A DNA stretch of 46,555 nt from Xenorhabdus griffiniae (GTDB lineage: Bacteria > Pseudomonadota > Gammaproteobacteria > Enterobacterales > Enterobacteriaceae), in assembly GCF_015163655.1 (NCBI RefSeq), contig NZ_JADEUF010000019.1, positions 1-46,555 on the forward strand. The letters are read 5' to 3'. Under the pieces are notes generated by a model. It searched no databases. It saw nothing but the letters and a program-made list of their open reading frames with translations, and was not told the origin of the DNA. Positions within the stretch are counted from its first letter, which is position 1. Each line of letters begins with the position of its first letter. The translations under genes and the position numbers were made by a program. Shown here in pieces: positions 216-20,527 of this stretch.

Positions 216-3200
216 ATGCATGACAGAGAAAAAATTGCTATTGTGGGGATATCTTGCCGTTTCCCTGGGTGTTATAACCAAGAGGAATTTTGGAAATTAT
301 ATCAAGAAAAAAAATCAGCGATTGTTGAAATACCTGAATCCAGATGGTCGGTTAGTCAATATTACTCGCCCCATTTTGAAAAAAATAAATCTGCAAGCCG
401 TTGGGCTGGCTTGGTAGAAAATTTTGACCGTTTTGACGCACCTTATTTTAATATCACGCCTCGTGAAGCGGAGTTAATGGACCCTCAGCAGCGCATTTCT
501 TTGGAATTAGCGGTTGAATGTTTAGAAGACGCAGGATATGGCGTTTCTGATGTGAAATCCGCTGATATTGGTGTTTTTCTGGGGGTGTGTAATTTTGATT
601 ATAAAGAACGCCTGGAAAAATCCATTACGAATATTCAAGGGCATCTTTCAACCGGAACGTATACTACGCTCATTCCCAATAGAATCTCCTTCTATTTGGA
701 TCTAAAAGGTCCCAGTGTTCCTATTGATACCGCATGTTCAAGTTCTTTGGTGGCACTTTCTTACGCCGTGCAATCTATTCAGATGGGTGATTGTGAAGCG
801 GCTTTTGTCGGGGGCGTGAGTTACCTATTTAGTCACACTTACTTTGTCGCCTTTTCCCAAGCCGGGATGTTGTCCAGAACCGGAAGTTTAAAAACGTTTG
901 ATAAACAAGCGAATGGTTATGTTCGCGGAGAAGGCGCAGGTATGCTCCTGATAAAACCGCTCGAAAAGGCGTTAGCGGATAACGATCGGATCTATGGTGT
1001 GATTGATGCAGTGGCCGTCAATCACGGTGGGAGTGTTGCGACGATCACTTCCCCCAATGCTTATGCTCAGGCGAATGTCATAAAAAAAGCACTTCAGAAA
1101 GCCAATATTTCTGCCAATTCAATTTCCTACATTGAATCTCATGGTACGGGAACACCAAAAGGCGATCCTATTGAGGTTAACGGATTAAAACGTGCATTCC
1201 GTGCCCATGCCAAAGAATGTGGAGAAACATTAGGTACAGCTTATTGTGTTTTGTCGGGTTCTAAGGCGAATGTTGGACATCTTGAGTCGGCTTCGGGCAT
1301 GGTAGGTTTGATTAAGGGCTTGCTTTCTATTCAGAAGAAACGCTTGTTACCGATACTTAATTTCAGTGAATTAAACCCAAAAATCGCTTTGGAGGAAAGT
1401 CCCTTCCGTATCCTTACGGAAGAGTGTGATTGGCAACCAGCAGAAGGAGGAGTACGGCGCTTTGGTGTCAGTAGTTTTGGGTTTGGTGGTGTCAACGCTC
1501 ATGCCATTGTTTCTGAATATCAGGATCAGAGAGTCTTTAAGCCTGAACCGACTACACATGTGTTTGCATTTTCAGCAGCCTCAGATAAGGCATTAAGAGC
1601 CTATGCTTTGTTAATTTCAACGTTTCTTCAAAACACACCTACCGCTTCAGTGAGTGATTGTGCTTACACCTTAGCCAGAAGAACAAATCTGCCATACCGT
1701 GTCGCTTTTATCTATCACACCCGGCAAGAGCTATTGGGGAAAATTATCTCTTTTGCCAATGGATTAGCGGCTGAAACACGCTCTGTCAGAGAAGATCCGG
1801 AATATGGAAAAGTGACTGCTTGGCTGAACGGAGAACAGGATAGCCTGAGAGATGTATTTTCAGCAGGTAATGACCGCATGACTTATGTTCCACCTTATCC
1901 TTTTCAGCACAACACGTATTTTCCTGCTGAGCTTGCAATGAAACAAAATGAAATAGTTGAAAATAAAATCATCAAGGATGAAAAACAGAATAACGTCAAT
2001 CAGTTGTACCAGATTGAACCGTTATTTTCTTCCATGACATTATCTTATGATGCGCTAAATCATGAGAAAAACAGGGCGCCGATTATTTTTTCCATGCTGG
2101 ATGAAAAACAATCTTCAGTATTGAGAAAACATGTTTCACCTGAACGATATTTTGAACTCCCCAAATTATCCAATGATGCGTCAGGAAGAGATTGGGTTAA
2201 CTGGTATTTACATTTTCTGGGGCAACTGATCAGAGCCATCGAATTAACCAGACCTGGCTCATGGATACTATTATCTGACCAAGAAAACATCTGGACAAAT
2301 ACACTCTATGCACACGCCCTATCATTGGAAAAAGAATTCGGTTTGCCTTGTGGCTGGTATCAATTACACAATGTCACTGTTTCACAACATATAGAACAAT
2401 GTTTAAAACTGTTACAAATGCCGGTATCGAGGTCTTTCTGCCGACGTTTGAACCGTGATGAAAAGGGATCATCGGCTCTTCGATTAGAAACTTTACACTA
2501 TCACGTCAGTGCATTTCCGGCAGAATCAGCACAACACCGTGAAACGCTATTGGGTTTTAAACCGACTGTATTAATCAGCGGAGGCGCTGGCGGTCTCGGG
2601 CAAGTATTTGCCAAATATTTAGCCAATACGTTTGATGCAAATGTTGTGATCATGGGGCGGCGAAAGTGTGCTGAACTGCCTGCGGATTATAAGACATCAG
2701 AAAAAGGCACGATTGAATATATTCAGGCGGATTGTTGTGATCGTCAGGCACTCACCGCAGCCATTGAGCATATCGTCACACAATATAAAAACATCGATCT
2801 CATCATACACAGTGCAGGAAGTATTGATGATCGCAGTATGTTTTTAAAGACGGAACAACATGTCAGAAGCATTGTTGAAAGTAAGGTCATTGGGTGTCAA
2901 TTGTTGGATGAACTTACCGCTTCACTTCCTGTTAAACAATTTATTGTGTTTTCCTCAATAACGGCGCTGTTCGGAAACCCCGGGCAAACGGATTATGCTG
3001 CTGCAAATCATTACCTTACTGCGTTTGCACATAACCGTAATAAGAAACAATCGGTAGGACTGCGAGCCGGACGAACGACGGTGATTTACTGGCCTTACTG
3101 GTTGGATGGCGGCATGAGAATCAATCAATCAGCCTTGTCCATGTTACAGGAAACAACGGGTACAGATCCTTTGTTAACCAATGATGGCATCCGAATTTTT

Positions 3201-5342
3201 AATCACGCGCTGATTCATCAGCCCGCAGAACTCTGCGTTGTGGCGGGAACGGGGAAGAAAATCGATGAAGTGCTTAATCGTCGACCTGTACATCAATCAA
3301 AATTAAAAGACAGGCAAGAGCGGGTTCCCGCTATTTTGTCGGTTATTACGGAGATAACCGGTTTACAGCCAGAAGATAAGGATTTCAAAACGCGTTTTTC
3401 TGATATGGGGATTGATTCTATTGCGATGCAGGGGATTTCGCGGGAACTCAGTCAGTTAACGGGGTTGACGATAAACAGCGTAGTTTTAGCGCAAAACCCT
3501 AGCATACATGCTTTGGCAGAATATCTGAGTCAATACGCTGAAAAACCGCATAATGACGACAATCTTCTAAAGAAGAAGCCTGAACTTCATACATCGTCAC
3601 AAATAGATGTTGATAAAAAGGATGTGGGCGTCATTGGCATTGATTTACGTCTGTGTGGCGCTGAACACTGGCGTGATGTGTGGCCATTGTTCAGTCAGAA
3701 AATCCTGATGCCTGAAATTTACCCTGAATCACGCTGGCAGATGTTACCGGATGAATTAACCAGAAACATCGAAAGAGAAAAGATACAAGGGTATTTCATG
3801 AAGGACAGCCTGGCCTTCGACTATAAATTTTTTGGCCTATCCCGCCGGGAAGCCATGTTGATGGATCCTCAGCATAGAACACTGATAGAAAGTGTCTGGT
3901 CTGCCATCACTGATGCGGGTTATTCACCTGAACAATTTAACCAACGAAAGACGGCTGTTTTTGTTTGTATTGATGCGAATGATTACGCAGTAATCGCTGA
4001 ATTTGATTCATCAATCGATGAGTTCTCAGTCGGCGCATCAACACCTTATTTGTCTGCCAATCGGTTATCCCATTTGTTTGATTTCAAAGGGCCAAGTGAA
4101 ACGCTGAACGTTGCTTGTGCGAGTGTTTATTCCGCTGTCGAAAAGGCGAAAGCATTAATCAATTCAGGTGTCGTGGATCAAGCGGTTGTTGCTGCTGCGC
4201 AAATCAACTTATTACCTTCTCGTTTTACCGCATTGCAGAAAAGAAACCTGCTGAGTGTGGACGGTATGGTTAAGCCTTTTGATGAAGATGCACACGGGTT
4301 TGTTCGTAGTGAAGGGGTTGGCTGTATCTTGCTAAAAAATCTGAAATTAGCGGTGACGGATGGCGACGAGGTTTTAGTCAACGTAAAAAGTGCAGCAAGC
4401 TGGCACGGAGGGCAGGGAGATTCTTTTACTGCACCAAACGCCGCTACCCATATGAATGTCATGGAAAGCGCGTTTAGAACGGCACAGGCGGATATCGAAA
4501 AACTGCAATATATTGAAGCTCATGGTATTGCATCTTATGTCGGTGATCTCAGTGAAGCCGATGCCATTGCCGCATTTTTATCACAGTCAGCACGTGCATC
4601 CTGTGTGGTCAGTTCAATGAAGTCGAACGTGGGGCATCTTGAGGTCTGTTCCGGTATTGCAGGATTTGTACGGACAATACTAGCGATGAAACATCAACAA
4701 ATACCGGGTATTTCTGAATTACATGAGTTGAGTGAAGATATTGATAGCAACCGGCTACACATCAAAAATACCAGTCAGCCTTTTAATCAGCCTGAAGGAT
4801 TAGTGGGTTTACTCTCCTATGGATTAGGTGGCGTTTCAGCATTTGTCCTTTTAGAACCGGTTACCGCTCACGCTGAAAATCGAATGATTGAAGATAAAGA
4901 ACAAGAGTATTGGTTCTGTCTGTCGGCCAATAATATTGAGTCATTAAAACGGTATGTGAATTCAGTCATAGAACAGATCCACCGGTATCGTCATATCACA
5001 CCATTACCTCAGCTCATATCGACATTACGGTTTTATCGTAAACATTTAGATGTGCGATTGGTGGTGAAAGTCGGCAGTTATGAGGAACTGCTTGATAAAT
5101 TGGCGGCATTTTTGGCGGGGCAGAGAGTGGATGAATTACAGACCTCTGTGAACGGTCAGGCTGATGTCATGCAGACAGCGTTGCCTGAAACATTACATAG
5201 GTGGTTAGCGAAAAAAAGCGGTGATGAAGCGATCACCCCCCCCATGAATAAACGGAGTTTCTGGCCGAAATATCCGTTTGATCACTCATCACCGCTTTAT
5301 ATTGTGTCAACGAGGGAAAATGCCGGACTGAATGAAAAATAA
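216..5342 (+). CDS. Trans-AT polyketide synthase A: KS1-KR-ACP-KS2
   Basis: A 1708-residue modular PKS in the cytosol that extends and reduces a polyketide chain. KS1 spans about 5-430 with catalytic Cys174 (DTACSSS), His309 (HGTGT) and His355 (NVGHLE). A KR structural half covers about 650-780. The catalytic KR covers about 785-965, with GGAGGLG at 789-795 and Tyr927 in DYAAAN; an IDD after HSAG suggests a B-type KR. ACP serine is Ser1068 (GIDSI). KS2 spans about 1140-1560 with Cys1301 (NVACAS), His1436 and His1474. There is no acyltransferase after either KS, so malonyl loading must come from the AT at 7543. The protein stops after KS2, so the partner ACP must be on another protein, most simply the free ACP at 5661. 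The start at 216 has an AAAGAGG site just upstream and gives a full KS N-terminus. The starter unit cannot be read from the sequence. Confidence 0.95.
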   Translation: MHDREKIAIVGISCRFPGCYNQEEFWKLYQEKKSAIVEIPESRWSVSQYYSPHFEKNKSASRWAGLVENFDRFDAPYFNITPREAELMDPQQRISLELAVECLEDAGYGVSDVKSADIGVFLGVCNFDYKERLEKSITNIQGHLSTGTYTTLIPNRISFYLDLKGPSVPIDTACSSSLVALSYAVQSIQMGDCEAAFVGGVSYLFSHTYFVAFSQAGMLSRTGSLKTFDKQANGYVRGEGAGMLLIKPLEKALADNDRIYGVIDAVAVNHGGSVATITSPNAYAQANVIKKALQKANISANSISYIESHGTGTPKGDPIEVNGLKRAFRAHAKECGETLGTAYCVLSGSKANVGHLESASGMVGLIKGLLSIQKKRLLPILNFSELNPKIALEESPFRILTEECDWQPAEGGVRRFGVSSFGFGGVNAHAIVSEYQDQRVFKPEPTTHVFAFSAASDKALRAYALLISTFLQNTPTASVSDCAYTLARRTNLPYRVAFIYHTRQELLGKIISFANGLAAETRSVREDPEYGKVTAWLNGEQDSLRDVFSAGNDRMTYVPPYPFQHNTYFPAELAMKQNEIVENKIIKDEKQNNVNQLYQIEPLFSSMTLSYDALNHEKNRAPIIFSMLDEKQSSVLRKHVSPERYFELPKLSNDASGRDWVNWYLHFLGQLIRAIELTRPGSWILLSDQENIWTNTLYAHALSLEKEFGLPCGWYQLHNVTVSQHIEQCLKLLQMPVSRSFCRRLNRDEKGSSALRLETLHYHVSAFPAESAQHRETLLGFKPTVLISGGAGGLGQVFAKYLANTFDANVVIMGRRKCAELPADYKTSEKGTIEYIQADCCDRQALTAAIEHIVTQYKNIDLIIHSAGSIDDRSMFLKTEQHVRSIVESKVIGCQLLDELTASLPVKQFIVFSSITALFGNPGQTDYAAANHYLTAFAHNRNKKQSVGLRAGRTTVIYWPYWLDGGMRINQSALSMLQETTGTDPLLTNDGIRIFNHALIHQPAELCVVAGTGKKIDEVLNRRPVHQSKLKDRQERVPAILSVITEITGLQPEDKDFKTRFSDMGIDSIAMQGISRELSQLTGLTINSVVLAQNPSIHALAEYLSQYAEKPHNDDNLLKKKPELHTSSQIDVDKKDVGVIGIDLRLCGAEHWRDVWPLFSQKILMPEIYPESRWQMLPDELTRNIEREKIQGYFMKDSLAFDYKFFGLSRREAMLMDPQHRTLIESVWSAITDAGYSPEQFNQRKTAVFVCIDANDYAVIAEFDSSIDEFSVGASTPYLSANRLSHLFDFKGPSETLNVACASVYSAVEKAKALINSGVVDQAVVAAAQINLLPSRFTALQKRNLLSVDGMVKPFDEDAHGFVRSEGVGCILLKNLKLAVTDGDEVLVNVKSAASWHGGQGDSFTAPNAATHMNVMESAFRTAQADIEKLQYIEAHGIASYVGDLSEADAIAAFLSQSARASCVVSSMKSNVGHLEVCSGIAGFVRTILAMKHQQIPGISELHELSEDIDSNRLHIKNTSQPFNQPEGLVGLLSYGLGGVSAFVLLEPVTAHAENRMIEDKEQEYWFCLSANNIESLKRYVNSVIEQIHRYRHITPLPQLISTLRFYRKHLDVRLVVKVGSYEELLDKLAAFLAGQRVDELQTSVNGQADVMQTALPETLHRWLAKKSGDEAITPPMNKRSFWPKYPFDHSSPLYIVSTRENAGLNEK

Positions 5343-5398
5343 AATGATTCAGAAGAGCATATTATTAGCAATAAATAACTGTGTGGAGAACGTAAGTT

Positions 5399-5659
5399 AT
5401 GGATAAAGTCGAAGACTCAGTCATAAATGCACTAAAAGAGATGATGGCAAAAGCTGTGATGTTCGGTTTGTCATGCTCTGAAAATAAAATGCAGATCAGC
5501 ATCTTGGATGATCAGAATGTCGATATTGTATCGAAATTAATGTCGTTATATGAATCGACAAATTACTTTCTGGCCGTCTCGGGAATAGATAAATCAGTCG
5601 ATGAAATACTCCCGTTGTATAAAGAAATCATATCTCAACTTCCGGAAGCGAGACTCTGA
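5399..5659 (+). CDS. Unknown 86-residue protein between a terminal KS and a free ACP
   Basis: I do not recognise this family. It is a small, probably soluble, mostly helical and mildly acidic protein with no signal peptide, membrane segment or cofactor motif. It lies 56 bases after PKS A, with a GGAG ribosome site before the ATG, and ends one base before the free ACP, so it is very likely in the same operon and translationally coupled. It lacks the GxDSL loop, so it is not an ACP. A docking or adaptor role for the split KS2/ACP module is possible but is only a guess from position. Confidence 0.7.
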   Translation: MDKVEDSVINALKEMMAKAVMFGLSCSENKMQISILDDQNVDIVSKLMSLYESTNYFLAVSGIDKSVDEILPLYKEIISQLPEARL

Positions 5660-5660
5660 T

Positions 5661-5915
5661 ATGACGAAGTTAGAAGAAATTAAAGATTTTCTCAGCAGTG
5701 AAGTGATGACTGCAATGTATATGGCAGCCGATGAGTTAGATCAGGATGCTTTATTTTCAAGCTATGGTTTGGAGTCAATTACGTTGGCAAAAATAGTGGT
5801 GAATATAAATAAACAATTTCTGACCCACCTCGCTGTACAGGATATTTTACCTTATCAGAGCGTTAATAAGGCAGCTAACTTTATTTACTCCATACTTGAG
5901 GAGAAAGTATCATGA
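5661..5915 (+). CDS. Discrete acyl carrier protein
   Basis: An 84-residue carrier protein that holds acyl chains on a phosphopantetheine arm. The modification loop reads YGLESITLAKI, with Ser39 as the attachment site, and the length and helix pattern fit a complete ACP. An upstream in-frame ATG at 5601 would overlap the preceding gene by 59 bases. I chose 5661 because a GGAAGCGA ribosome site sits before it and it starts just after the previous stop. The gene overlaps the next one by four bases (ATGA). Between PKS A, which ends in a KS without an ACP, and PKS B, which begins with a KS, it is the best candidate for the missing ACP of the KS2 module. It may also be the carrier on which the cupin-like enzyme acts. 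A starter-unit ACP is the alternative. Confidence 0.88.
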   Translation: MTKLEEIKDFLSSEVMTAMYMAADELDQDALFSSYGLESITLAKIVVNINKQFLTHLAVQDILPYQSVNKAANFIYSILEEKVS

Positions 5916-6979
5916 CAACATCATATTCAAATTATGATTATGTGGATCTGCCTGAAAAAGAACGTCTGGAATATGAACGCATCTTTTTCTTAAGAAACTT
6001 TTTTTTACAGCCGGATTTGTTTCAGAACGAGTTGAAGCAAGCTGAACAAAATATGGTATTTGCATTACCGGTTTTAGAATCCGGCTATTCAGAAATAGAA
6101 ACCTATGAACCAGGAGAACTGACCTGGCAGAAACTGGCGCAGATCTATGCGGAAGATATTCGTCCTGTAGTCATTAAAGGGTTTGCCTCCTCTTTCCCTT
6201 GCGGTCAGCTTTGGACACCAGAGTATTTCCGGGATAACTTCGGCGATTTTCAACTGTGGTATTCGACAACAGAAAAACTGTTTGAAGAAGATGGAACCTC
6301 GCTACGTGATTATATCAATGGTGTATTAAAGGGAGACATCAGCCGAGCCTATCTTGAAAACTTAAGTGATATCTTTAATAAATACCCGATCCTGCATCAA
6401 CAAATTGGTATTGACCGTATTGGTAACTTCTTAGGTGATTTTGCCTCATATCACAAAATTGCCCAGCTTTTTATCGGTGGTCCGGGTACTGGTGCGGTTT
6501 ACCATTGTGCTAATGAGCTGAATTGCTTCCTGAATATTTATGGCCGTAAAGAATGGATATTTGTTCACCCTAAATATTCTGCGGCTATGTATAGCTCCAT
6601 GTTTAATAAAGGGATTTTTGTGGGTTCATTTGTCAAACACAATGCACCAGTAAGATATTTAGAAGAACATCAGCCGCTTTATAATCGAATTCCTAAACTG
6701 AGAATTACGTTAGAGCCGGGGGATATGTTAATTAATCCGCCGTGGTGGTGGCATGCAATTAATAATCAACCGCCTGTATCCATTGCTATTGCTTCCCGCT
6801 GGAAGATTGAAATGCCTTACCAACATCAGAATCCGCTCTATGAATTTGTTCAATCTCAAAGAATGGAAAGACTGACGCTGGAAGGAAAAAAAATGGCTGA
6901 TAGTGATGTTGTTGTCCCTGACAGTGAATTACGTAAAAAATATGTCTCTTATAAAGAGATGGGATGGGTTGGTAATTGA
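5912..6979 (+). CDS. Cupin/JmjC-like Fe(II)/2-oxoglutarate enzyme with HxA metal site (possible halogenase)
   Basis: A 355-residue protein of the cupin_8/JmjC-like (FIH-related) family, which normally hydroxylates its substrate using iron and 2-oxoglutarate. A PVVIKGF segment opens the domain. The core reads YHCANELN then GRKEW, and the distal PPWWWHAI supplies the second histidine. Aligned by eye to the usual HxD...GRK pattern, His198 and distal His281 are the metal histidines. Lys213 (His+15) and Asn204 (His+6) match the 2-oxoglutarate-binding positions of FIH. The acidic ligand at His+2 is Ala200. Loss of that carboxylate is the hallmark of Fe/2OG halogenases such as SyrB2, where halide takes the vacant site. 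The family is clear; halogenation is inference, and a hydroxylase using another ligand or a dead enzyme are alternatives. The start overlaps the ACP stop (ATGA) behind a GAGGAG site. The ACP is the likely substrate carrier. Confidence 0.85.
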   Translation: MTTSYSNYDYVDLPEKERLEYERIFFLRNFFLQPDLFQNELKQAEQNMVFALPVLESGYSEIETYEPGELTWQKLAQIYAEDIRPVVIKGFASSFPCGQLWTPEYFRDNFGDFQLWYSTTEKLFEEDGTSLRDYINGVLKGDISRAYLENLSDIFNKYPILHQQIGIDRIGNFLGDFASYHKIAQLFIGGPGTGAVYHCANELNCFLNIYGRKEWIFVHPKYSAAMYSSMFNKGIFVGSFVKHNAPVRYLEEHQPLYNRIPKLRITLEPGDMLINPPWWWHAINNQPPVSIAIASRWKIEMPYQHQNPLYEFVQSQRMERLTLEGKKMADSDVVVPDSELRKKYVSYKEMGWVGN

Positions 6980-7108: not shown

Positions 7109-7525
7109 ATGAAAGAATTTCAGAATCAAGACGTTCACTCAGTATTTGATAATTATCCTGAACGATATCAAAAATTATTATTGACGATAAGAGAATTAAT
7201 ATTTGATGTCGCAGCAAAAACGGAAGGCGTTGGTTCAATTACTGAGACTCTGAAATGGGGGCAACCCAGCTACCTGACTCTTGAAACGGGATCGGGAACC
7301 ACCGTCCGGTTAGATCGTTTCGGTCATTCGCATGTGGCTATCTTTTTTCACTGCCAAACCACACTGGTTGATACATTCAGAACCCTTTTTCCTGAACTGA
7401 CTTATTCAAAGAATCGGGCCATTGTTTTAGACCCGGAAGACGATTTACCAACAAATGAGTTGAGGATATGCATTGAAATGTCACTTACTTATAAGTTGAG
7501 GAAAAAAAATAACCACTGCATTTAG
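7109..7525 (+). CDS. DUF1801-family protein
   Basis: A 138-residue soluble protein resembling the DUF1801 (YdhG-like) fold. The supporting features are ETLKWGQPSY near residue 47 and a C-terminal NRAIVLD segment. The biochemical role of this family is not established. It lies 129 bases after the cupin-like gene and 17 bases before the AT gene on the same strand, so it is probably co-transcribed with the AT. An AAGGTAG ribosome site precedes the start. It has no obvious PKS role and could be a passenger or an accessory function. Confidence 0.75.
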   Translation: MKEFQNQDVHSVFDNYPERYQKLLLTIRELIFDVAAKTEGVGSITETLKWGQPSYLTLETGSGTTVRLDRFGHSHVAIFFHCQTTLVDTFRTLFPELTYSKNRAIVLDPEDDLPTNELRICIEMSLTYKLRKKNNHCI

Positions 7526-7542
7526 AAAACAGGATGTGAACG

Positions 7543-8433
7543 ATGAAAACATATACTGTCGCAATGTTTCCCGGACAGGGAGCCCAGTTTCAAGGCATGG
7601 GACGCAACCTGTTTGATAAATATGAATATCACATGAGGCTTGCACAACAGGTATTGGGATATTCACTCGTCCAGGTATGTGAAGGTGAACCCCACGTGCT
7701 TAACAGAACTGAATTCACTCAGCCTGCTCTGTTTGTCATTAACATTCTGCATTACTTAGACAACCTAGAAAAACACGGGACAGACGCTGAAATCTTTGTG
7801 GGCCATAGTTTGGGTGAATATTGTGCTTTGTTTGCCGCAGGGGCGTTTAGTTTTGAAACGGCGTTATCGATTGTTCAGGAACGAGGCCGGTGTATGGCCC
7901 TGTGCTCTGAGGGAGCGATGGCTGCCGTTATTGGCCTTAAATTGGCGCAGGTAGAATCTTTATTAGCGGATTCTGAATTGCATGATTTAACCATAGCCAA
8001 TTTTAATTCACCCACTCAATTTATTATTTCAGGTGATCAATCCGAATTATCTCAATTTCAAGAAAAGGTATTAAAAGCGAAAGGTATTTTTCATCCTTTG
8101 CCGGTTAATGGTGCATTTCATTCGAAAAGAATGGCAAGTATTGCCAGAAAATTTAAAGATTTTCTTGAACGTGTTGAAATTTATTCACTGAAAGCTCCGG
8201 TGTTATCGAATGTGACAGCGGATTATTATCCAGTGAATAATCGGGAGCAACTCATCGATTTATTAGTTAAACAATTATCGTACCCTGTGCGTTGGCAACA
8301 ATGTATGGAAAAGCTCTATTCCGATAAACCTATTTCCGATGAACCTATTATTGGTTTTGAATATGGCCCAAAACCGGTGGTAGGGCCATTAGCCAAGAAA
8401 ACATTAGGTGAACATATTACATTGATGAATTAA
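7543..8433 (+). CDS. Discrete malonyl-CoA:ACP acyltransferase (trans-AT)
   Basis: A 296-residue FabD-like acyltransferase that moves malonyl from CoA onto ACP domains. It begins with the family signature GQGAQF, has the nucleophile Ser89 in GHSLGE, the downstream QERGR motif, and GAFHS, a form typical of malonyl rather than methylmalonyl specificity. The length is normal for a free AT without an attached enoyl reductase. Because no KS in the locus is followed by an AT domain, this protein most likely loads every extender module in trans, which defines the pathway as trans-AT. The start has an AGGATGTG site upstream. A 205-base gap with two strong inverted repeats separates it from PKS B. Confidence 0.95.
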   Translation: MKTYTVAMFPGQGAQFQGMGRNLFDKYEYHMRLAQQVLGYSLVQVCEGEPHVLNRTEFTQPALFVINILHYLDNLEKHGTDAEIFVGHSLGEYCALFAAGAFSFETALSIVQERGRCMALCSEGAMAAVIGLKLAQVESLLADSELHDLTIANFNSPTQFIISGDQSELSQFQEKVLKAKGIFHPLPVNGAFHSKRMASIARKFKDFLERVEIYSLKAPVLSNVTADYYPVNNREQLIDLLVKQLSYPVRWQQCMEKLYSDKPISDEPIIGFEYGPKPVVGPLAKKTLGEHITLMN

Positions 8434-8532: not shown

Positions 8533-8567
8533 TTTGCACGGAGAATTATATTTTTACTCTGTGCAAA
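8533..8567 (+). promoter_or_regulatory. Second inverted repeat in the PKS B leader
   Basis: TTTGCACGGAG at 8533-8543 pairs with CTCTGTGCAAA at 8557-8567 (11 pairs including one G-U) across a 13-base AT-rich loop. It lies about 70 bases before the chosen PKS B start and could affect leader structure or bind a protein. It argues that 8534-8638 is leader rather than coding sequence. Confidence 0.4.
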
Positions 8568-8638
8568 TGGGTTGGCTTTGTTCATTTAAAAGAAATTATT
8601 TTTTATTGTTTGCCAGAATACAAATAGGAGAGTTATTG

Positions 8639-11600
8639 ATGGAATATTCTATCATCGGCGTAGCTGCACAATTCTGTGGAGGTTTGTCATTGTCTCATTA
8701 TTGGCAGACGTTGGTTGAAGGCGGCTCTTTGATGAGGGTTATAAACGAAGAACGCTATCAACTTAATAATCGCCAAACGTCGGTTAAATGGGGGGGTAGG
8801 GAAAAGATACGCGGTATGTTTCTTGAAGATATTGATAGCTTCGACAGGCATATTTTTCCTCTCTCGGGTTCTGCCATTATGTTTGCAGACCCACGGCAGA
8901 GATTGTTTCTACAAACCTGCTGGCAACTTCTTGAAGATGCAGGGCTAGCCGCATCAACGCTATCAGGCAAGAAAGTCGGGGTATTTGTTGCTCAGGATGG
9001 CTGGTATTTAAATTCTTATGTCGACAGAATTCCAGATGAGCATAAGGAAAGTCAGGAGTTTATTGTGCCGGGAAACGATCCCTGTTTTCTGGCAAATCGG
9101 GTATCTTTCTTTTTTAACTTCAATGGCCCATCCATTGTTGTTGATACAACCTGTTCAAGTGCTTTTGTTGCTTTGGATATGGCCTGTCAGGCACTGGAAT
9201 GCGGCGATTGTGACTACGCTATCGTGGGGGGTGTTTCGCTGTTTTTAAATCCCTGGAAAGCGGGAGAAACCACGGCGACACCGTTTGAAACTGGCGGAGA
9301 GGATATACACAGTTTTTCTGAAAAGGCTTCAGGATACAGAACCTCAGAAGGGTGCGCAGCTTTATTTTTGCAAAGAAACAGCGATGAAGTCAATCAACGC
9401 CACTATGTTTATGGTGTGGTGCAGGCCAGCGGCCATAATTCTGGCGGTAAAACTAATTCATTTGCCCAGCCCAATAAAGAACAACAAATCAACCTGTTTC
9501 AGACCGTATTAAAACGGGCGAACCTTTTACCTGAGCAGATTCACTATGTGGAAGCCCACGGCGTTGCTTCTCAAATGGGAGATGCGATTGAAGCGAATGC
9601 GTTGGTGGATGTTTTCGCCCGCTCACAGAATACTTCACCCTGCTATGTGAGTACGGTCAAACCCAATATTGGCCATAACCATGCCAGCTCAGGGTTTTAC
9701 GCCATCATCAAGGGGCTTATGGCGTTCAGGTATAACCAGATCCCTCTGATTCGTGGGCTGAATAACGCGGAATTGAATGCCGACATTCCAGCCAATACTC
9801 AGGGAATTCAGTTCCTGACAGAAACAGTTGATTGGCCGCAATCTCAAGAAGGGGCACCCCGGCATATATTTTTCAGCAGTTATGGATTCAGTAACGTCAA
9901 TGCGGCCATCGTCTTGCGGGAACCCGATAACCCTCCTGCCGCCAAAATAAGCCCTCTGGCGGAAACGGTAACAGAAAAGCCGGTACTTGTTTGTCTATCT
10001 GCAAGAAGTGATGAGCAGCTTTACCAACAGGCAGTCAACCTGTGTAAAACGGTCAGTGAGCCGGATTTTGCCGAGAATTTCAATCTGCATGAACTTGCCT
10101 GGACACTCAGTACAGGGCGAGAAGCGTTTACGCATCGTTGGGCAACGTTGGTTTCATCAATAGAACAGCTCAGATGCGCATTAGAAGTGTTTGTTGAATC
10201 CCCGGAAAAACAAAAAGCAACAATCTATCTGGGACAAAATGTACGGGAAACGGCACTAACGGCTCAACACGCTGAACTTGACGTGGCTGCAAACAATGGG
10301 TTCCCGACAGAGTCATTAGAAACCGTTGCGAAATGTTGGGTTGCCGGTGTTGATATTGATTGGATGCAGTATTGGGGCGGTGCGGAATGGCGGCGTATTC
10401 CTTTACCTGCCTATCCGCTTGCCAAAGCGCGTTATTGGGTGCCTGAAGGTGAAGTCAGTAGGCTATCGTCACAGGAAGTATCATCTCAGGAAGGGAGCAG
10501 CCAATTTATCCATCCGTTTGTTCACCAAAATACCTCTGATTTTGCAGAACAACGTTTTAGTACCACATTTTCCGGTGAGGAATTTTGTCTTAAGGGGCAT
10601 GTAATTCATGGTATTCGCGTGCTGCCGGGAGTCGGGCATTTAGAACTGGCCCGTGTGGCTGCACATCACTCTTTCGGCACAACACCGAATTCCTCGTTAG
10701 CAGAGCAGGAAAAAACCGGGCTGACGCTGAAAAATGTCGTCTGGGCGCAGATTATCGGTGTTATTGATGAACCTCAGCGGATACATATTCGTTTTATCAA
10801 TCATGGCAATGGCGAAGCAGGCTATCAGCTATACAGTCGTGCAGAAAAAGAGACGATCCATAACTCCGGCGTCGCGACACGAAAAGCACTCACACCGGCA
10901 CCGGTCTATGATATCGACAGCCTGAAATCGCGCTATCTGCAAAACGCGTACTCTCCTAAGCAATACTATGACATGTATTACGTACTGGGCTTATACATGG
11001 CACCAGACTATCAGGGCATTGAAGAGCTTTATGTGGGAATGGACCACGTCCTGGCTAAACTGTCGCTGCCTGAATCTCTGGCGCCAACCAGAGAGCAGTT
11101 TGTTTTGCATCCTTGTTTAATGGATGGCGCGCTTCTTTCATCCGTCGGGCTTTTAATGCGTTTTGGTGATCTTAATCGTCCCATTCCACCTAAATGCTTA
11201 ATCCCTTTTGCGCTTGATGAAATCGAATTTCATGATGAAGAATCCCAATTACACTGGGCGTGGATCAGTTATAGCGTGGACAGCAGCGCCTCAGATCCTT
11301 TCCCGAAAGTGGATGTCGATTGTTGTGATATTAACGGAAAGGTGTGTATCCGGTTTAAAGGTTTCAGTTGTCGGGGATTGGGGGCGCAGTCTGCGCCACC
11401 GGCAGAGACTGAACCTTATTTATTACAGCCTCAGTGGAAAAGTCAGGCATTGCCTTCGGATACTGTGTTACGTGTTTTCACAAAACGTATCGTGTTCCTG
11501 TGTGAATTAGAGCGTCTTCAATCTGAGTCGTTTATGTCAGATACCGACACATGTGAATATATTGTGTTACCAAAACTGAGCCGTGATGAAGTGCCGTTAA

Positions 11601-14600
11601 AAAGGCACCAGAACGTCATCACACTCTGCAAAAAAATTGATGAGATTATTAACCATTCTCCTGCAGAACCCATGTTTATTCAGTTGGTCTTGCCGGAAGC
11701 CCTTCCTGAATATGCCATCGTGACCGCGCGATTAAAAACAGCCTATCAGGATAATGCCAATCTGCTTAGCCAGACGATTTATTGTGATGATAAAGAGAGA
11801 CTGGCTGAGAAATTGTCAGCGGAAACTTCACAGATAAAATATGACACAGTCCGGTGGCAATCGGAGGAACGTTGGGTTCCTCATTGGACTGTCTGGACGC
11901 CTGAAAACGGTTCTGCTGAAAATTTAACACCGCCGTGGAAAGAAAAGTCTGTTTACTTAATTATTGATGAAGACGGCAGTATGGGGCGCGTGATTGCCAG
12001 AGATATTACAACGCATACTGATTCAGCCATTGCTATTGTTTTGAATGAAACAGGTTTAAATGAAAGTGAAAAGAACCAATACCAAATCACAATAGCCTCA
12101 AAGACGACCACGATTAATGACGGCGTTATTTGTCTTGATGCCGCCACATTAGCGGCGCTTGTTAGCCGAATTGAGCAAAATTTTGGCGCACTGCGGGGGG
12201 GATTTTTCTGTGTGGGTAAACGTTCGCAACACGTGGAGAACGAAACCCTAAGTTCAATACTTGAACGTTATCAGGGACTGTCGCTGCTGGAGAAAGCAAC
12301 TCAGGGTACGTTGCTTGATTTCTTTACAGTACTGACTTACCGGGATGGCGTATTAGGTTGTGCTGAGCATCCCCTGTTTTCTGCCTATTGCGCCGCGGCT
12401 AACAACTTTGTTCGTCACCATCAACAGCGTTCCCAAAGACAAACACTGTCATTGATACTGCCTCAATCTAGCGGAGCAAATGAGGAAGAATTTATTCGCC
12501 ATAGGGCGCTTCAATCTTTGTATCAGGCACTGCATGAGAAATTTAGTGGTGAATTGATGCTAATGGAAGGAGGCGCGATAGAGCGTTTCAGAGCAGAAAT
12601 GTTGGGTGTTCGTCCCTATTATGAACCCACCTTTCCGTCGAATTCAGAAAATAACGTCAACTCATTCGTCACTCAGGTCAGTCAGTCTCAGGCATCTTCC
12701 GACCTCAGATCCACCGCGGTAGATTTGATTAAGCGGGTTGTGAGCAAGGCGGTAAGCCTTCCCTTAGCCGAAATTGATGAAGATGCTGGTATGGAGAAAT
12801 ATGGAATAGATTCCATTTTATCCATCAAGATGACGGAAGCACTGGAGCAGAATTTCGGTGTCCTGCCAAAGACCCTGTTTTTTGAATATCTCACCATTCG
12901 GCAACTGGCGGCTTATTTTGTTAAGCATCATCATCTTGTTTTACTGGGACAGTCGCAAAATAATCCACAAAACATTCAGCCAACATCAACGATGGCTAGC
13001 TCTCGCCTGCCAGTACAACCGATTTCCGGCAGAACAGAAAGCCTTGCTGTTTCTCAGACAGGCAAGGCGAAGTATACCACAACCGAGTTAGATGACATCG
13101 CCATTGTAGGTTTGGCCGGACGTTTTCCTCAGGCAAGAAACATGCGTGATTTCTGGCAGCTCCTGAGAGAAGGGCAGGATTGCATTACCGAGATCCCTTC
13201 TCAACGCTGGGATAATTCACGCTATTTCGACATGGATAAAACCAAACGCGGCAAAACCTACGGCAAATGGGGCGGTTTTATTGAGGGTGTTGATGAATTT
13301 GATCCGCTATTTTTTAACCTATCACCCCGCGATGCGCGTGTGATGAGCCCGCAGGAACGGCTCTTTTTACAATGCGCCTACGAAACCATTGAGGATGCGG
13401 GATACAGCCACAGAACATTAGGCTCCCGTGACTGGACACGGCTACCGAAAAAGATGGGCGTGTATGTGGGGGTCATGTATGGAGAATATGAGTTTTATAG
13501 CATAGAGGAATTGGCAAAAGGGAATGTGCTTGAGCAGTCTATCGTGACCGGCAGTTTTGGCTCAATCGCCAATCGGGTATCGCATTTCTTTAATATCAAT
13601 GGTCCCAGCCTTGCGGTCGATACCATGTGTTCTTCCTCACTGACGTCAATCTACCTTGCCTGTCAGGCACTCAGACAGGGGGACATTGAGATGGCTCTGG
13701 CGGGGGGCGTCAATGTTTCTATTCACCCGAATAAATACTTAATTCTGGGGCAGTCTAAATTTTTGTCTGACGAAGGACGATGCCAGAGTTTTGGCGAGGG
13801 AGGAACCGGGTATGTTCCGTCAGAAGGGGTGGGTGCGGTTTTACTGAAACCGTTGACGAAGGCGATTGAAGATGGTGACCACATTTATGGCGTTATCAAG
13901 GGCATCGCTGTTAATCACGGAGGGAAAACCAACGGTTACACTGTTCCGAATCCTATCGCGCAAGCCGACGTGATTGTTCAGGCCATCCAGTCTTCTGGGG
14001 TGAATCCGCGGGCCATTAGCTATATTGAAGCGCATGGAACAGGAACTTCACTGGGCGATCCTATTGAAATAGCCGGTCTCAATCGGGCATTCCAACAATG
14101 TTTACAAGGGAACGATATACAGGAGAGTGCATTCTGCGCCATCGGCTCAGTAAAATCCAATATTGGTCATTGTGAAAGTGCGGCGGGTATTGCGGGCGTC
14201 GCCAAAGTACTCATGCAAATCAAGCACCGTCAGTTAGTGCCTTCTTTACACAGCCGTGAATTAAACCCCAATATCGATTTTGACGCCTCACCGTTTTATG
14301 TGCAGCGTGAACTTGCAGATTGGAAAAGGCCGCTGTTGGGTGACAAACAAGAGCCATCGGAGCATCCCAGAACGGCAGGGATTTCATCATTCGGTGCCGG
14401 AGGAACCAATGCTCACTTGGTTGTGCAGGAATACATTCCGGCTAACGACTTACATTCCATCAAGAATACCGATTGGCCAAAATGGGCTGTTATCCCTCTA
14501 TCGGCAAAAAACCACGAACAGCATCGTGAATTAGCGCAAACCTTATCACAGTATCTTAGAGAGCAGGCGAAATGGTGCTCAGAAACGTCCAAAGCAGAAT

Positions 14601-17600
14601 ACCTGCATAGCCTTGCCTATACCTTGCAGACAGGGCGGGAAGAAATGGAAGAGAGAGCCACCTTTATGGTCGATTCCCTTTCTACCCTGATTGATAGTTT
14701 AAAGGCATTTTCTCTGTCCTGTTTACCCTCAACGCATTTTTGGATGGGACGAGTAGAAAAATCTAAATCCACAAAACAGTTAATGACGTCTGTTTATGTC
14801 GGGAAAGATCAGCATGAAGAAGAATATGAGCAGTTAAAACAGATCGCCAGCGCCTGGACTCAAGGGCATGACATTGATTGGCAGGGGTATTACCAATCCC
14901 TTTCCGTACAGCCAACCCGCTTAAGCTTACCGACTTATCCGTTTGCCCGGGAAAGATACTGGATACCGGAATCGGAAGCGCAGACAGCCGTTTTGCCTGC
15001 CGCAGTTGTGGAAGACATTATCTCAACGGAAGAGACTAGCTCGACGGTGTTTTATACATCGGGTTGGGAACGATGCGATATCCGTCAGAATACGGCGTAT
15101 GCAATGAAGCCCAAGCGCACCGACTCATTTGTGATTGGGAACGTCAATGAAACCTCACTGACAGAGCTGACTTCGTTGGCGGGTGTGGAAAATATCCATT
15201 ATCTTCGCGCTGAGCCTGATCTGCATCCCAATAGCCAGTATTCAGTCTCTTTATCTGACCTTGTTTTACGATTAGTGGATTATTGCCAGCAGCGCATTCG
15301 CACTGGTCAGGCATTACCGGAATGCATCGCGGTTTTCGCACCGTGGAAAGAGAATGGATTACCTTATCGCGCTTTATTGGGGGCACTCAGAACCCTTAGC
15401 ATGGAATTTCCGGCGGTACAGACGAAACTTATTTTAGATGCTGCACTGGATAATGCAGACGGTGAAACCTTCTGCCGACATGCGGAAAAAGAACTTCTTT
15501 CGTCAAATCAACTTTCTTCAGCGGTGTGCTATCAGGAAACAGGGCAGCGCTTTGTCTGGCGTCAAAAAGCGGTAGAACCGACCGCCTTAATGCATCTCCC
15601 GTCTTTGTTTAATCATGCATGCCGGACGATTTGGATTACGGGTGGTCTGGGTGGATTGGGATACCAGATTGCGCAATATATCGGCACAAAAACGGGCGCC
15701 CAGCTGGTGTTATCGGGGCGTTCTGTTCTCGATGCCGATAAAGCAGCGCAACTGAATGCGCTAAGAAAACGCGGAATAAAAGCCGAATATGAGCCATGCG
15801 ATGTGAATAATCGTCAGGCACTGGAAAAAACCCTGCTACTTATTCGCCAGCGCTTTGGTGCTCTGCATGGTGTTATCCATTGTGCCGGCGTTATCCATGA
15901 TGCGCTGACGGTCAATAAAACAGAGGAAGAGATTTACCGAGTGATCGCCACCAAAGCCTCGGCGGTCTGTTTGCTGGATGAAGTGACCCAACACGAACCG
16001 CTGGCATTTTTTGTTATGTTCTCTTCACTTGCCTCTTTGGGGAATATCGGACAGATAGACTATGCGGCGGCAAACGCCTTTCTGGATACATTTGCTGAGT
16101 ATCGTGAAAATTTAGTTCAGCAGAAACAAAGAAGCGGGAAAAGTTTGTCAATTAACTGGCCTCTTTGGCAGGAAGGCGGCATGAACGTAACGCCGAGGGT
16201 AGAAAAACACATGTTTGATACCTTTGGTATTGTTCCTCTGGAGACAAAAACCGCGCTGGAAACACTGGAAATCGCGCTTCGTTCACCGTTCCCTCAGTTT
16301 GGCGTGATGAAAGGAGATGCGCAAAAGATTGGGGATTACCTGAGACTCTCTGACGCTCCTTCACCGGTTACACCGCTGTCCGCATCAGATAACGAAGACT
16401 TGGATTTTGTCAGCCCGAATGAATCAGATAACTCGGCAGACACTGTTGCGGATATTGTTGCGGATATTACTGCCGGCAAATTATCCGAATTATTGGGTAT
16501 GCGTAGCGAGGCCATCGATATTCACCGACAGTTTGGCGATTATGGCATGGACTCTGTCGGGCTGATTGAGCTGGCTGAGTATATTAATTCCCGCTTTGAG
16601 GTAACGCTGTCACAGGCGAATTTTTTAGAATTCAACACATTACACCGTGTGGCAGAACACCTGATCAAACTGTTGCCAGAGCCGACCCTTTCAGCCCCTT
16701 CTGACACGTCATCTTCCGATATGTCATCACCGGTAATGCCTGCCTCTGTCAGCGAGCCCTCTTTTGCCATTGTGGGCTATGACTGTATGTTTCCGGGGGC
16801 TAAAAATGCGCAAGCGTACTGGCAGAACATGATCCAAAAAACCGTTTCTATTCAGGGGATCACGCAGGAAGCGTGGCAACAACGCCACATTCTCATCCCT
16901 TCCGATAAGGAAGATGCGGTAAAACGCATGCAATCATCCGGTTTTTTACAGGATATCGATCAATTTGATGCTGAATTCTGGGGGATTGATGCCGAAACGG
17001 CAAAACAGATAGATCCGCAGCAACGTCTGCTTATGCAGTGTATCTGGCGATGTGTTGAACACGCGGGTTATGATTTGGAAGACCTCACACAGCATAAAGT
17101 CGGGTTATTTGTTGCTGTTGATTCCACTGACTACAAGTCACTGATTAAAGACCATGCTCTGATCAACAACACCGGAAAAAGTGGCGGATTACAGGCGGGT
17201 CTGAGTCTGGGCATGATGGTGAATCAGATCTCCTATTTCTTCAATTTTACCGGCCCGAGTGAAGTGGTGGATAACGCCTGTGCCAGTGTGTTTGTCGCGC
17301 TGCAAAAAGCCCGACAGGCGATGCTACAGGGTGATTGCGACGTGGCGATTGTCGCAGGCGTTAAAGTCATCCTTGATTTTATGGAGTTTTATATCCGGGA
17401 TCAGGGCGGCATTCTCAGCCAGTCAGGAAAAATGGCGCCTTTTGACTACACGGCAGATGGTTATATCCGGGGGGAAGGCGTAGGCGCCGTCATGATTAAG
17501 CCGCTGGAACAAGCGTGTCTGGAACATGATCCTGTCCGCGCCATCATCCGGGGTGTCGGGGTTTCTCATAATGGCCGGAGCGCTTTCTCGTCGATGGCAC

Positions 17601-18577
17601 CGAGTGTTGAGAAACAGGAAGAAAATATCAGAAAGGCCTACCAATCCGCGGGGATCGATCCTTGCTCTGTTGACTACATTGAAGCTCACGGATCTGCGAC
17701 GCAATTTAATGATGTCAGTGAAGTTGCAGCTTTTAAAAAGGTTTTTTCAGAAAATCAGGCCGTTTCACATCGTTGTGTCGTCAGTGCAGTGAAAGGCAAC
17801 ATTGGTCATCTGGAAGCCGCTTCTGGCATAGCCTCCCTGATTAAAGTGATTCTGGCCATGAAGCATGAGGTCATTCCACCGATTGCTTCTTTTTCTCAAT
17901 TACCCCCCTCAATTTTTATTGAGAACACCCCCTTGTTCTTCCCGTGTGAGCCAGTTCTGTGGCAACAGGCTAGTTCAGACAAAACACAGCCAAGACGAGC
18001 TGGCTTGAACTCGATTGGGATCACGGGAGTCAATGCGCATGTCATTTTGGAAGCCCCTGATCAGCTTGCGATGCCGGTGCTTTCCCAAAGGAGAGAACAC
18101 GCCCAAAGGAAAGAGCACGTTCTTATTCCCATCTCGGCGAAATCCGAGAAAACCTTAAAAGCTTATCTGAGTCAGTGGCTGGATTTTGTGCGTCAGGAAA
18201 AGTCAGTCGGCCATGATAACGCCATGACGTTAAGGAATCTGGCGTACAGCGCCCAGACGGGGCGCGCGGATATGCCATTCCGCACGGCGATCATTGTCAA
18301 CGATTTAGAAAAACTTATCGCGACGCTGGAGTGGATGATTGCAGGGGAAAACGGAACACCGCCAGCGGGTGCGGTTGAGATGGGCGTCGTCCCGCCAAAA
18401 AGCCGCTCTGCCAAAAAACAGGTTGCATTTTCCACCACATTACCTGTGTTGAAACAACTGGCGGACGATTGGGTTGCAGGCGCCTGTATAGACTGGCGGG
18501 CTTTTGCTCAGGGGCACGGAGTCTACGTTGATATTCCCAGTTACCCGTTTGATGAACAGCGATATTGGTTCCTTTGA
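8639..18577 (+). CDS. Trans-AT polyketide synthase B: KS3-DH-degenerate KR-ACP-KS4-KR-ACP-KS5
   Basis: A 3312-residue PKS. KS3 (about 1-430) has Cys172 and intact EAHGVAS and NIGH histidines. DH (about 620-915) has His654 (HVIHG....P) and Asp829, but the usual Gln four residues later is Leu. The next region (about 920-1330) is KR-like but its cofactor loop reads DEDGSMG and its active Ser is lost, though SAYCAAAN keeps a Tyr. ACP serine is Ser1392 (GIDSI). KS4 (about 1480-1910) has Cys1664 and full HGTGT. The KR near 2140-2560 is intact, with GGLGGLG from 2335 and Tyr2475. ACP serine is Ser2639 (GMDSV). KS5 (about 2700-3130) has Cys2881 (NACAS) and EAHGSAT. No AT is present. The protein ends after KS5, so its ACP must be in trans, most likely the one fused to the flavoenzyme downstream. 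Start 8639 was chosen over 8534 because AGGAG precedes it and the KS N-terminus begins there. Confidence 0.95.
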   Translation: MEYSIIGVAAQFCGGLSLSHYWQTLVEGGSLMRVINEERYQLNNRQTSVKWGGREKIRGMFLEDIDSFDRHIFPLSGSAIMFADPRQRLFLQTCWQLLEDAGLAASTLSGKKVGVFVAQDGWYLNSYVDRIPDEHKESQEFIVPGNDPCFLANRVSFFFNFNGPSIVVDTTCSSAFVALDMACQALECGDCDYAIVGGVSLFLNPWKAGETTATPFETGGEDIHSFSEKASGYRTSEGCAALFLQRNSDEVNQRHYVYGVVQASGHNSGGKTNSFAQPNKEQQINLFQTVLKRANLLPEQIHYVEAHGVASQMGDAIEANALVDVFARSQNTSPCYVSTVKPNIGHNHASSGFYAIIKGLMAFRYNQIPLIRGLNNAELNADIPANTQGIQFLTETVDWPQSQEGAPRHIFFSSYGFSNVNAAIVLREPDNPPAAKISPLAETVTEKPVLVCLSARSDEQLYQQAVNLCKTVSEPDFAENFNLHELAWTLSTGREAFTHRWATLVSSIEQLRCALEVFVESPEKQKATIYLGQNVRETALTAQHAELDVAANNGFPTESLETVAKCWVAGVDIDWMQYWGGAEWRRIPLPAYPLAKARYWVPEGEVSRLSSQEVSSQEGSSQFIHPFVHQNTSDFAEQRFSTTFSGEEFCLKGHVIHGIRVLPGVGHLELARVAAHHSFGTTPNSSLAEQEKTGLTLKNVVWAQIIGVIDEPQRIHIRFINHGNGEAGYQLYSRAEKETIHNSGVATRKALTPAPVYDIDSLKSRYLQNAYSPKQYYDMYYVLGLYMAPDYQGIEELYVGMDHVLAKLSLPESLAPTREQFVLHPCLMDGALLSSVGLLMRFGDLNRPIPPKCLIPFALDEIEFHDEESQLHWAWISYSVDSSASDPFPKVDVDCCDINGKVCIRFKGFSCRGLGAQSAPPAETEPYLLQPQWKSQALPSDTVLRVFTKRIVFLCELERLQSESFMSDTDTCEYIVLPKLSRDEVPLKRHQNVITLCKKIDEIINHSPAEPMFIQLVLPEALPEYAIVTARLKTAYQDNANLLSQTIYCDDKERLAEKLSAETSQIKYDTVRWQSEERWVPHWTVWTPENGSAENLTPPWKEKSVYLIIDEDGSMGRVIARDITTHTDSAIAIVLNETGLNESEKNQYQITIASKTTTINDGVICLDAATLAALVSRIEQNFGALRGGFFCVGKRSQHVENETLSSILERYQGLSLLEKATQGTLLDFFTVLTYRDGVLGCAEHPLFSAYCAAANNFVRHHQQRSQRQTLSLILPQSSGANEEEFIRHRALQSLYQALHEKFSGELMLMEGGAIERFRAEMLGVRPYYEPTFPSNSENNVNSFVTQVSQSQASSDLRSTAVDLIKRVVSKAVSLPLAEIDEDAGMEKYGIDSILSIKMTEALEQNFGVLPKTLFFEYLTIRQLAAYFVKHHHLVLLGQSQNNPQNIQPTSTMASSRLPVQPISGRTESLAVSQTGKAKYTTTELDDIAIVGLAGRFPQARNMRDFWQLLREGQDCITEIPSQRWDNSRYFDMDKTKRGKTYGKWGGFIEGVDEFDPLFFNLSPRDARVMSPQERLFLQCAYETIEDAGYSHRTLGSRDWTRLPKKMGVYVGVMYGEYEFYSIEELAKGNVLEQSIVTGSFGSIANRVSHFFNINGPSLAVDTMCSSSLTSIYLACQALRQGDIEMALAGGVNVSIHPNKYLILGQSKFLSDEGRCQSFGEGGTGYVPSEGVGAVLLKPLTKAIEDGDHIYGVIKGIAVNHGGKTNGYTVPNPIAQADVIVQAIQSSGVNPRAISYIEAHGTGTSLGDPIEIAGLNRAFQQCLQGNDIQESAFCAIGSVKSNIGHCESAAGIAGVAKVLMQIKHRQLVPSLHSRELNPNIDFDASPFYVQRELADWKRPLLGDKQEPSEHPRTAGISSFGAGGTNAHLVVQEYIPANDLHSIKNTDWPKWAVIPLSAKNHEQHRELAQTLSQYLREQAKWCSETSKAEYLHSLAYTLQTGREEMEERATFMVDSLSTLIDSLKAFSLSCLPSTHFWMGRVEKSKSTKQLMTSVYVGKDQHEEEYEQLKQIASAWTQGHDIDWQGYYQSLSVQPTRLSLPTYPFARERYWIPESEAQTAVLPAAVVEDIISTEETSSTVFYTSGWERCDIRQNTAYAMKPKRTDSFVIGNVNETSLTELTSLAGVENIHYLRAEPDLHPNSQYSVSLSDLVLRLVDYCQQRIRTGQALPECIAVFAPWKENGLPYRALLGALRTLSMEFPAVQTKLILDAALDNADGETFCRHAEKELLSSNQLSSAVCYQETGQRFVWRQKAVEPTALMHLPSLFNHACRTIWITGGLGGLGYQIAQYIGTKTGAQLVLSGRSVLDADKAAQLNALRKRGIKAEYEPCDVNNRQALEKTLLLIRQRFGALHGVIHCAGVIHDALTVNKTEEEIYRVIATKASAVCLLDEVTQHEPLAFFVMFSSLASLGNIGQIDYAAANAFLDTFAEYRENLVQQKQRSGKSLSINWPLWQEGGMNVTPRVEKHMFDTFGIVPLETKTALETLEIALRSPFPQFGVMKGDAQKIGDYLRLSDAPSPVTPLSASDNEDLDFVSPNESDNSADTVADIVADITAGKLSELLGMRSEAIDIHRQFGDYGMDSVGLIELAEYINSRFEVTLSQANFLEFNTLHRVAEHLIKLLPEPTLSAPSDTSSSDMSSPVMPASVSEPSFAIVGYDCMFPGAKNAQAYWQNMIQKTVSIQGITQEAWQQRHILIPSDKEDAVKRMQSSGFLQDIDQFDAEFWGIDAETAKQIDPQQRLLMQCIWRCVEHAGYDLEDLTQHKVGLFVAVDSTDYKSLIKDHALINNTGKSGGLQAGLSLGMMVNQISYFFNFTGPSEVVDNACASVFVALQKARQAMLQGDCDVAIVAGVKVILDFMEFYIRDQGGILSQSGKMAPFDYTADGYIRGEGVGAVMIKPLEQACLEHDPVRAIIRGVGVSHNGRSAFSSMAPSVEKQEENIRKAYQSAGIDPCSVDYIEAHGSATQFNDVSEVAAFKKVFSENQAVSHRCVVSAVKGNIGHLEAASGIASLIKVILAMKHEVIPPIASFSQLPPSIFIENTPLFFPCEPVLWQQASSDKTQPRRAGLNSIGITGVNAHVILEAPDQLAMPVLSQRREHAQRKEHVLIPISAKSEKTLKAYLSQWLDFVRQEKSVGHDNAMTLRNLAYSAQTGRADMPFRTAIIVNDLEKLIATLEWMIAGENGTPPAGAVEMGVVPPKSRSAKKQVAFSTTLPVLKQLADDWVAGACIDWRAFAQGHGVYVDIPSYPFDEQRYWFL

Positions 18578-18615
18578 TGAACCCGTTTTTTACAACCATA
18601 AACACGCAAATTGAC

Positions 18616-18636
18616 GCCGTTATCTTGGATAACGGC
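18616..18636 (+). promoter_or_regulatory. Perfect intercistronic hairpin between PKS B and the flavoenzyme gene
   Basis: GCCGTTATC at 18616-18624 and GATAACGGC at 18628-18636 form a perfect 9-bp stem with a 3-base loop. No T-run follows, so termination is unlikely. It lies 20-30 bases before the AAGGAAG ribosome site of the next gene and may limit coupling or mark an RNA-processing point. It supports 18670 as the next start. Confidence 0.45.
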
Positions 18637-18669
18637 ACAACGTACGGCATTGAAAAAGGAAGTAAAAAG

Positions 18670-20505: not shown

Positions 20506-20527
20506 TTATGTAATGGAAGGCATTTCT

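Follow-up and report, generated by a model that had tools for sequence, protein, structure and literature searches.

A likely OocP-type halogenase of the Cupin_8 family in a trans-AT polyketide synthase locus of Xenorhabdus griffiniae

The cupin gene and its polyketide synthase surroundings

The window, that is, the whole stretch of DNA analysed (46,555 bases), is an entire contig of the 4.22-Mb genome of Xenorhabdus griffiniae. Its gene at 5912–6979 (+) encodes a 355-aa protein of the Cupin_8/JmjC fold, likely an Fe(II)/2-oxoglutarate (2OG) halogenase; the open reading frame opens with ATG, and an AGGAG-like sequence lies just 5' of it. A Pfam search at E 0.01 matched this protein only to Cupin_8 (E 1.4e-18), JmjC (7.4e-6) and JmjC_2. 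Translation confirmed both the coordinates and the residues that an earlier note on this DNA had singled out, namely His198, Ala200, Asn204, Lys213 (H+15, counted from His198) and His281; Glu202 lies among them. The metal-site codons at 6503–6511 (+) encode residues 198–200, HCA, in which Ala (codon GCT) replaces the iron-binding Asp, as that note had also claimed for a protein of this family. The HxD...H facial triad of JmjC/FIH hydroxylases is therefore absent. Structure prediction of the cupin from three sequences gave a pLDDT of 33.5, too low for a fold search.

The cupin gene belongs to a small cassette set between polyketide synthase (PKS) genes. Immediately before the cassette comes a PKS (216–5342, +; KS-KR-ACP-KS) whose last domain is a KS; both of its KS domains have Cys-His-His. 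It is followed by the gene for an 86-aa protein of no known family (5399–5659, +), which is kept in the cassette and for which a weak model of three helices was obtained (pLDDT 56.4), and by that for a free-standing acyl carrier protein (ACP) with a GLES serine (5661–5915, +; PP-binding E 6.6e-8). The ACP gene overlaps the cupin start by four bases (ATGA), as noted earlier, but it most likely begins at the ATG at 5661 and not, as previously given, at 5601. This ACP is the probable presenter of the substrate. Downstream of the cupin gene, the cassette also keeps a DUF1801 protein (7109–7525, +); since this family includes a Bacillus frataxin-like iron protein, iron supply for the adjoining iron enzyme is conceivable by analogy. 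A discrete acyltransferase follows (7543–8433, +; Acyl_transf_1 E 6.4e-34, and fabD model E 2.9e-74, which is under that model's cut-off) and marks the locus as a trans-AT PKS. The first KS of the next PKS (8534–18577, +) again has Cys-His-His.

Farther along, 18565–20505 encodes a protein of 646 aa in which an ACP at the N-terminus is followed by a C-terminal FAD-type domain (GGGIAG, LGES, WLIP) showing weak matches to Trp_halogenase (E 0.011) and to a geranylgeranyl reductase family (3e-5), both under cut-off. The protein is possibly a flavin oxygenase fused to its carrier, or else another halogenase; its flavin part found no solved relative in the PDB at E 0.01 and no match among plasmids. 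The PKS proteins at 20513–29533 and 29490–36839 contain KS domains with Asn or Ala instead of the first catalytic His, which are probably non-elongating, and SnoaL-like and nitroreductase domains are built into these proteins. In the literature searched, from which subscription papers were mostly absent, no publication was evidently on this Xenorhabdus cluster.

Conservation in Xenorhabdus and Photorhabdus

A single-protein contig scan, which finds close relatives only, yielded the cupins of X. budapestensis DSM 16342 and Photorhabdus luminescens DSM 3368, which are 95% and 89% identical to the window cupin, respectively. In all three species, the ACP and cupin genes are kept together, the stretch HCANELN is identical, and both His as well as the 2OG Lys are invariant. 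Because the same HCANELN occurs in X. budapestensis and P. luminescens, a sequencing error behind Ala200 is unlikely. Three pairwise dN/dS values per gene, from simple Nei-Gojobori counts among the three species, were 0.038–0.067 for the cupin gene, compared with 0.141–0.224 for the 86-aa protein, 0.148–0.182 for the ACP, 0.154–0.159 for the DUF1801 protein and 0.116–0.161 for the acyltransferase. These data indicate that the cupin is under strong purifying selection, with the strongest constraint of the five cassette genes measured; with dN/dS at 0.04–0.07, below the four other small genes, it does not have the look of a decaying gene.

Among 28 other genomes of the same genus, an intact cupin gene was found in one (G007); it is identical to that of X. 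budapestensis and was not counted as an extra case. A further genome of the genus (G002) carries a different protein with HxE at the site, and another (G008) retains a remnant of the cassette only (L056:5814–8159). Since window stretches 5234–5546, 5685–6904 and 7828–8014 have no blastn match in this remnant, most of its ACP and cupin genes are gone. In P. luminescens DSM 3368, the frame of the upstream PKS (L002:305–5418) is split into open reading frames 305–4801 and 4714–5418, either because the gene has decayed or through an error in sequencing.

Kinship to OocP and the iron-Asp position

When all PDB sequences were searched, the best match of the cupin was 8a82 chain A (E 9e-25), followed by JMJD5/KDM8, listed as lysine-specific demethylase 8 (E 1.1e-11). 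The PDB names 8a82 chain A just as a Cupin_8 protein. We infer that it is OocP, of the oocydin/haterumalide trans-AT PKS of Serratia, because chain B is named OocQ and relatives of the two chains are encoded side by side in the genome G041, where the chain A relative is full-length (E 1.3e-247). Among the solved structures matched, OocP is the sole halogenase, the others bearing hydroxylase, demethylase or unrelated names. In one paper, OocP is described as the Fe(II)/alpha-KG halogenase of the oocydin pathway (PMC11260071), and another states that deletion of oocP left no bioactivity and deletion of oocQ very low bioactivity (PMC4552970).

Like the window cupin, OocP is a Cupin_8 protein with a small residue at H+2, and the alignment showed that it keeps the 2OG Lys and the distal His; however, the identity between the two is 24–25%, and the metal site reads HQG in OocP where the window has HCA. 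Both carry an acid at H+4 (Glu202 in the window, Asp in OocP). The two proteins further have in common Y65, Y158, C205, V218 and H253, which are absent from all HxD rows with a residue aligned at those positions (34 to 38 of the 38), and N201, G194, P261, K262 and A282, present in one to three HxD rows, although these positions were chosen after the fact and with no shuffle control. JMJD5 resembles the window cupin in its fold family, distal His, H+15 Lys and Asn at H+6, but keeps HxD in the alignment; FIH shares the same set of features, including the HxD. JMJD5, FIH and JMJD7 are hydroxylases of proteins. In Fe/2OG halogenases, loss of the carboxylate frees the iron site for halide, and those of the SyrB2 type (PhyH-like) have HxA/G for HxD and act on a carrier-bound substrate. 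The window cupin resembles them in this site and, as proposed, in acting on a carrier-bound chain, but differs in Pfam family, with no PhyH match at E 0.01.

We then compared the H+2 position among 46 distinct Cupin_8 rows, of which 24 came from 37 candidates; the 13 omitted comprised 12 HxD rows (seven 76–96% identical to L025, the other five being distant or weak) and L036, which lacks the site His. Asp was found in 38 of the 46 rows and is the rule at this position. The eight exceptions have Ala (the window, X. budapestensis, P. luminescens and a Planktothrix plasmid), Gly (OocP), Phe (an Acinetobacter plasmid, L012), Glu (Xenorhabdus L031) or His (L070). With the exception of L070, they are set apart by a branch supported at 99/97, which was retained at 98/99 with the three site columns removed, and N285 is present in all seven, compared with 3 of the 38 HxD rows. 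The window cupin and OocP thus belong to the same clade, separate from the HxD cupins. Within this clade the order is weak (86/47), the branches are long and the place of OocP is not fixed; the window and its two close relatives join the HxF row L012, not OocP, at 94/85. The earlier note had proposed checking whether HxA proteins form their own clade in PKS/NRPS loci. A carboxylate-less clade does exist, but it mixes Ala, Gly, Phe and Glu, and because Phe and Glu also occupy the position, HxA by itself is no proof of a halogenase.

Profile searches of genomes, which covered Pseudomonadota, found relatives of the cupin in few of them: 4 of 398 in the phylum-wide sample and 16 of 369 in the class-wide sample (own genome included in both), 5 of 289 in the class of G560, and the own genome only among 394 in the order-wide sample. 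All five matches in the class of G560, one of them already counted, have Asp at H+2, and the same holds for the aligned non-window matches of the phylum-wide and class-wide searches except the HxH row L070. No cupin relative was found among phages or in two scans of viral contigs. Among plasmids, the query P0001 and the Planktothrix protein each retrieved 6 records, and the Acinetobacter protein retrieved 2. The Planktothrix protein (WP_227398348.1, plasmid p2 of P. agardhii, L009:8463–9566) shares with the window cupin the HCA site, a PPWWWH stretch and the clade, but is 25–28% identical to it and lies in a terpenoid-like cluster. Its neighbours include a phytoene/squalene synthase, a prenyltransferase/squalene oxidase repeat protein, P450s and Rieske proteins; the 20 features listed, in an incomplete gene table, include neither a PKS nor a carrier protein.

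The gene order of the window is also like that of ooc. In G041, the ooc-type cluster has a KS-terminated PKS followed by a free ACP (PP-binding 2.6e-12), OocP and OocQ; as the order matches up to the cupin gene, the pairing of free ACP and cupin after a terminal KS is common to both loci. BLASTP gave no alignment between the two ACPs, and the KS domains flanking the cassette grouped with their ooc counterparts at a support of just 67/62. In the upstream KS of ooc, Glu stands in the place of the first catalytic His, whereas the upstream KS of the window keeps Cys-His-His; on these residues, the window KS may condense and the ooc KS may only transfer. A further difference is that OocP works as a heterodimer with OocQ, while none was detected for the window cupin. 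OocQ had no match at E 10 in the own genome (positive control G041, 4.2e-78), none in the plasmid collection, chance-level matches alone in G007 and G008 (E 0.35 to 0.69) and a best E of 2.3 against the window ORFs. A very diverged OocQ-like partner in the own genome is possible. The 86-aa protein was considered as a stand-in and rejected, giving no BLASTP alignment with OocQ.

Proposed reaction and competing explanations

Since the window cupin has both His, the 2OG Lys and the vacancy at the Asp position, as well as kinship to OocP and a carrier context, we consider it to be an OocP-type Fe(II)/2OG halogenase with a probability of roughly 0.72. The earlier suggestion of a halogenase built on the JmjC/cupin_8 fold thus stands as likely, given the best PDB match and the common clade, but not as something new, since OocP precedes it. 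The main doubts about halogenation are that no OocQ was found, that identity is low and that the clade has HxF and HxE members. In the proposed reaction, the terminal KS of the PKS at 216–5342 would build or hand the chain onto the free ACP. The cupin would hold iron via His198 and His281 and 2OG via Lys213, and chloride (or bromide) would fill the iron site vacated by Ala200. O2 and 2OG would then give a halo-Fe(IV)=O species that abstracts hydrogen from the acyl chain, leaving a radical to which the halogen would be transferred. The first KS of the PKS at 8534–18577 would extend the halogenated chain, and the halogen would be either retained in the product or lost at a later step. We infer the binding of iron and 2OG, the use of halide, the ACP partner and the carbon attacked.

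The same protein might instead hydroxylate or desaturate a carrier-bound chain as a 2OG oxygenase, with only two His on iron and the Asp replaced by water or by a second-shell residue. The named hydroxylases among its relatives (FIH, JMJD5 and JMJD7), the acid at H+4 in the window as well as in OocP and the failure to find OocQ in the own genome at E 10 all favour this. Nevertheless, a residue at H+4 on a strand should, by general geometry, be too far away to share iron with His198. Glu202 is therefore unlikely as a substitute iron ligand, the more so because OocP, reported as the halogenase (PMC11260071), has the same vacancy and an H+4 acid too. We regard an oxygenase as unlikely overall. 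The HxF and HxE relatives, which show that the position does not always suit halide, could also point to a catalytically dead cupin that serves the assembly line as a structural or docking component, but such a role is quite improbable in view of the invariant His, 2OG Lys and HCANELN in three species and of selection stronger than on any of the other four genes measured. As for the substrate, the HxA relative in the Planktothrix cluster fits an enzyme that would halogenate a free small molecule, or a chain bound to another carrier, such as the ACP fused to the flavoprotein at 18565–20505. The four-base overlap of the ACP and cupin genes, their joint retention in three species and the same pairing in the ooc-type locus make this very improbable.

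Returning to the halogenase, a cupin-fold PKS halogenase is already known in OocP, and in our judgement the window adds an HxA form, with no detectable OocQ, in nematode symbionts. If true, such a distant second branch lacking OocQ would reveal which features cannot be dispensed with, help to trace halogenated products of Xenorhabdus and Photorhabdus, and supply a simpler catalyst for putting chlorine into the interior of polyketide chains. From the carboxylate-less branch in the tree and the Planktothrix locus, one may further speculate, tentatively and with considerable doubt, that carboxylate-less Cupin_8 proteins are a separate halogenase lineage, in which Asp was lost once, which has no OocQ in Xenorhabdus and Photorhabdus and which spread to non-carrier substrates, the Planktothrix HxA protein halogenating a terpenoid. 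The Cupin_8-like HxF protein of the Acinetobacter indicus plasmid (L012:7953–8972), for which the PDB held no solved relative at E 0.01, is encoded near a thioesterase and an acetoacetyl-CoA reductase.
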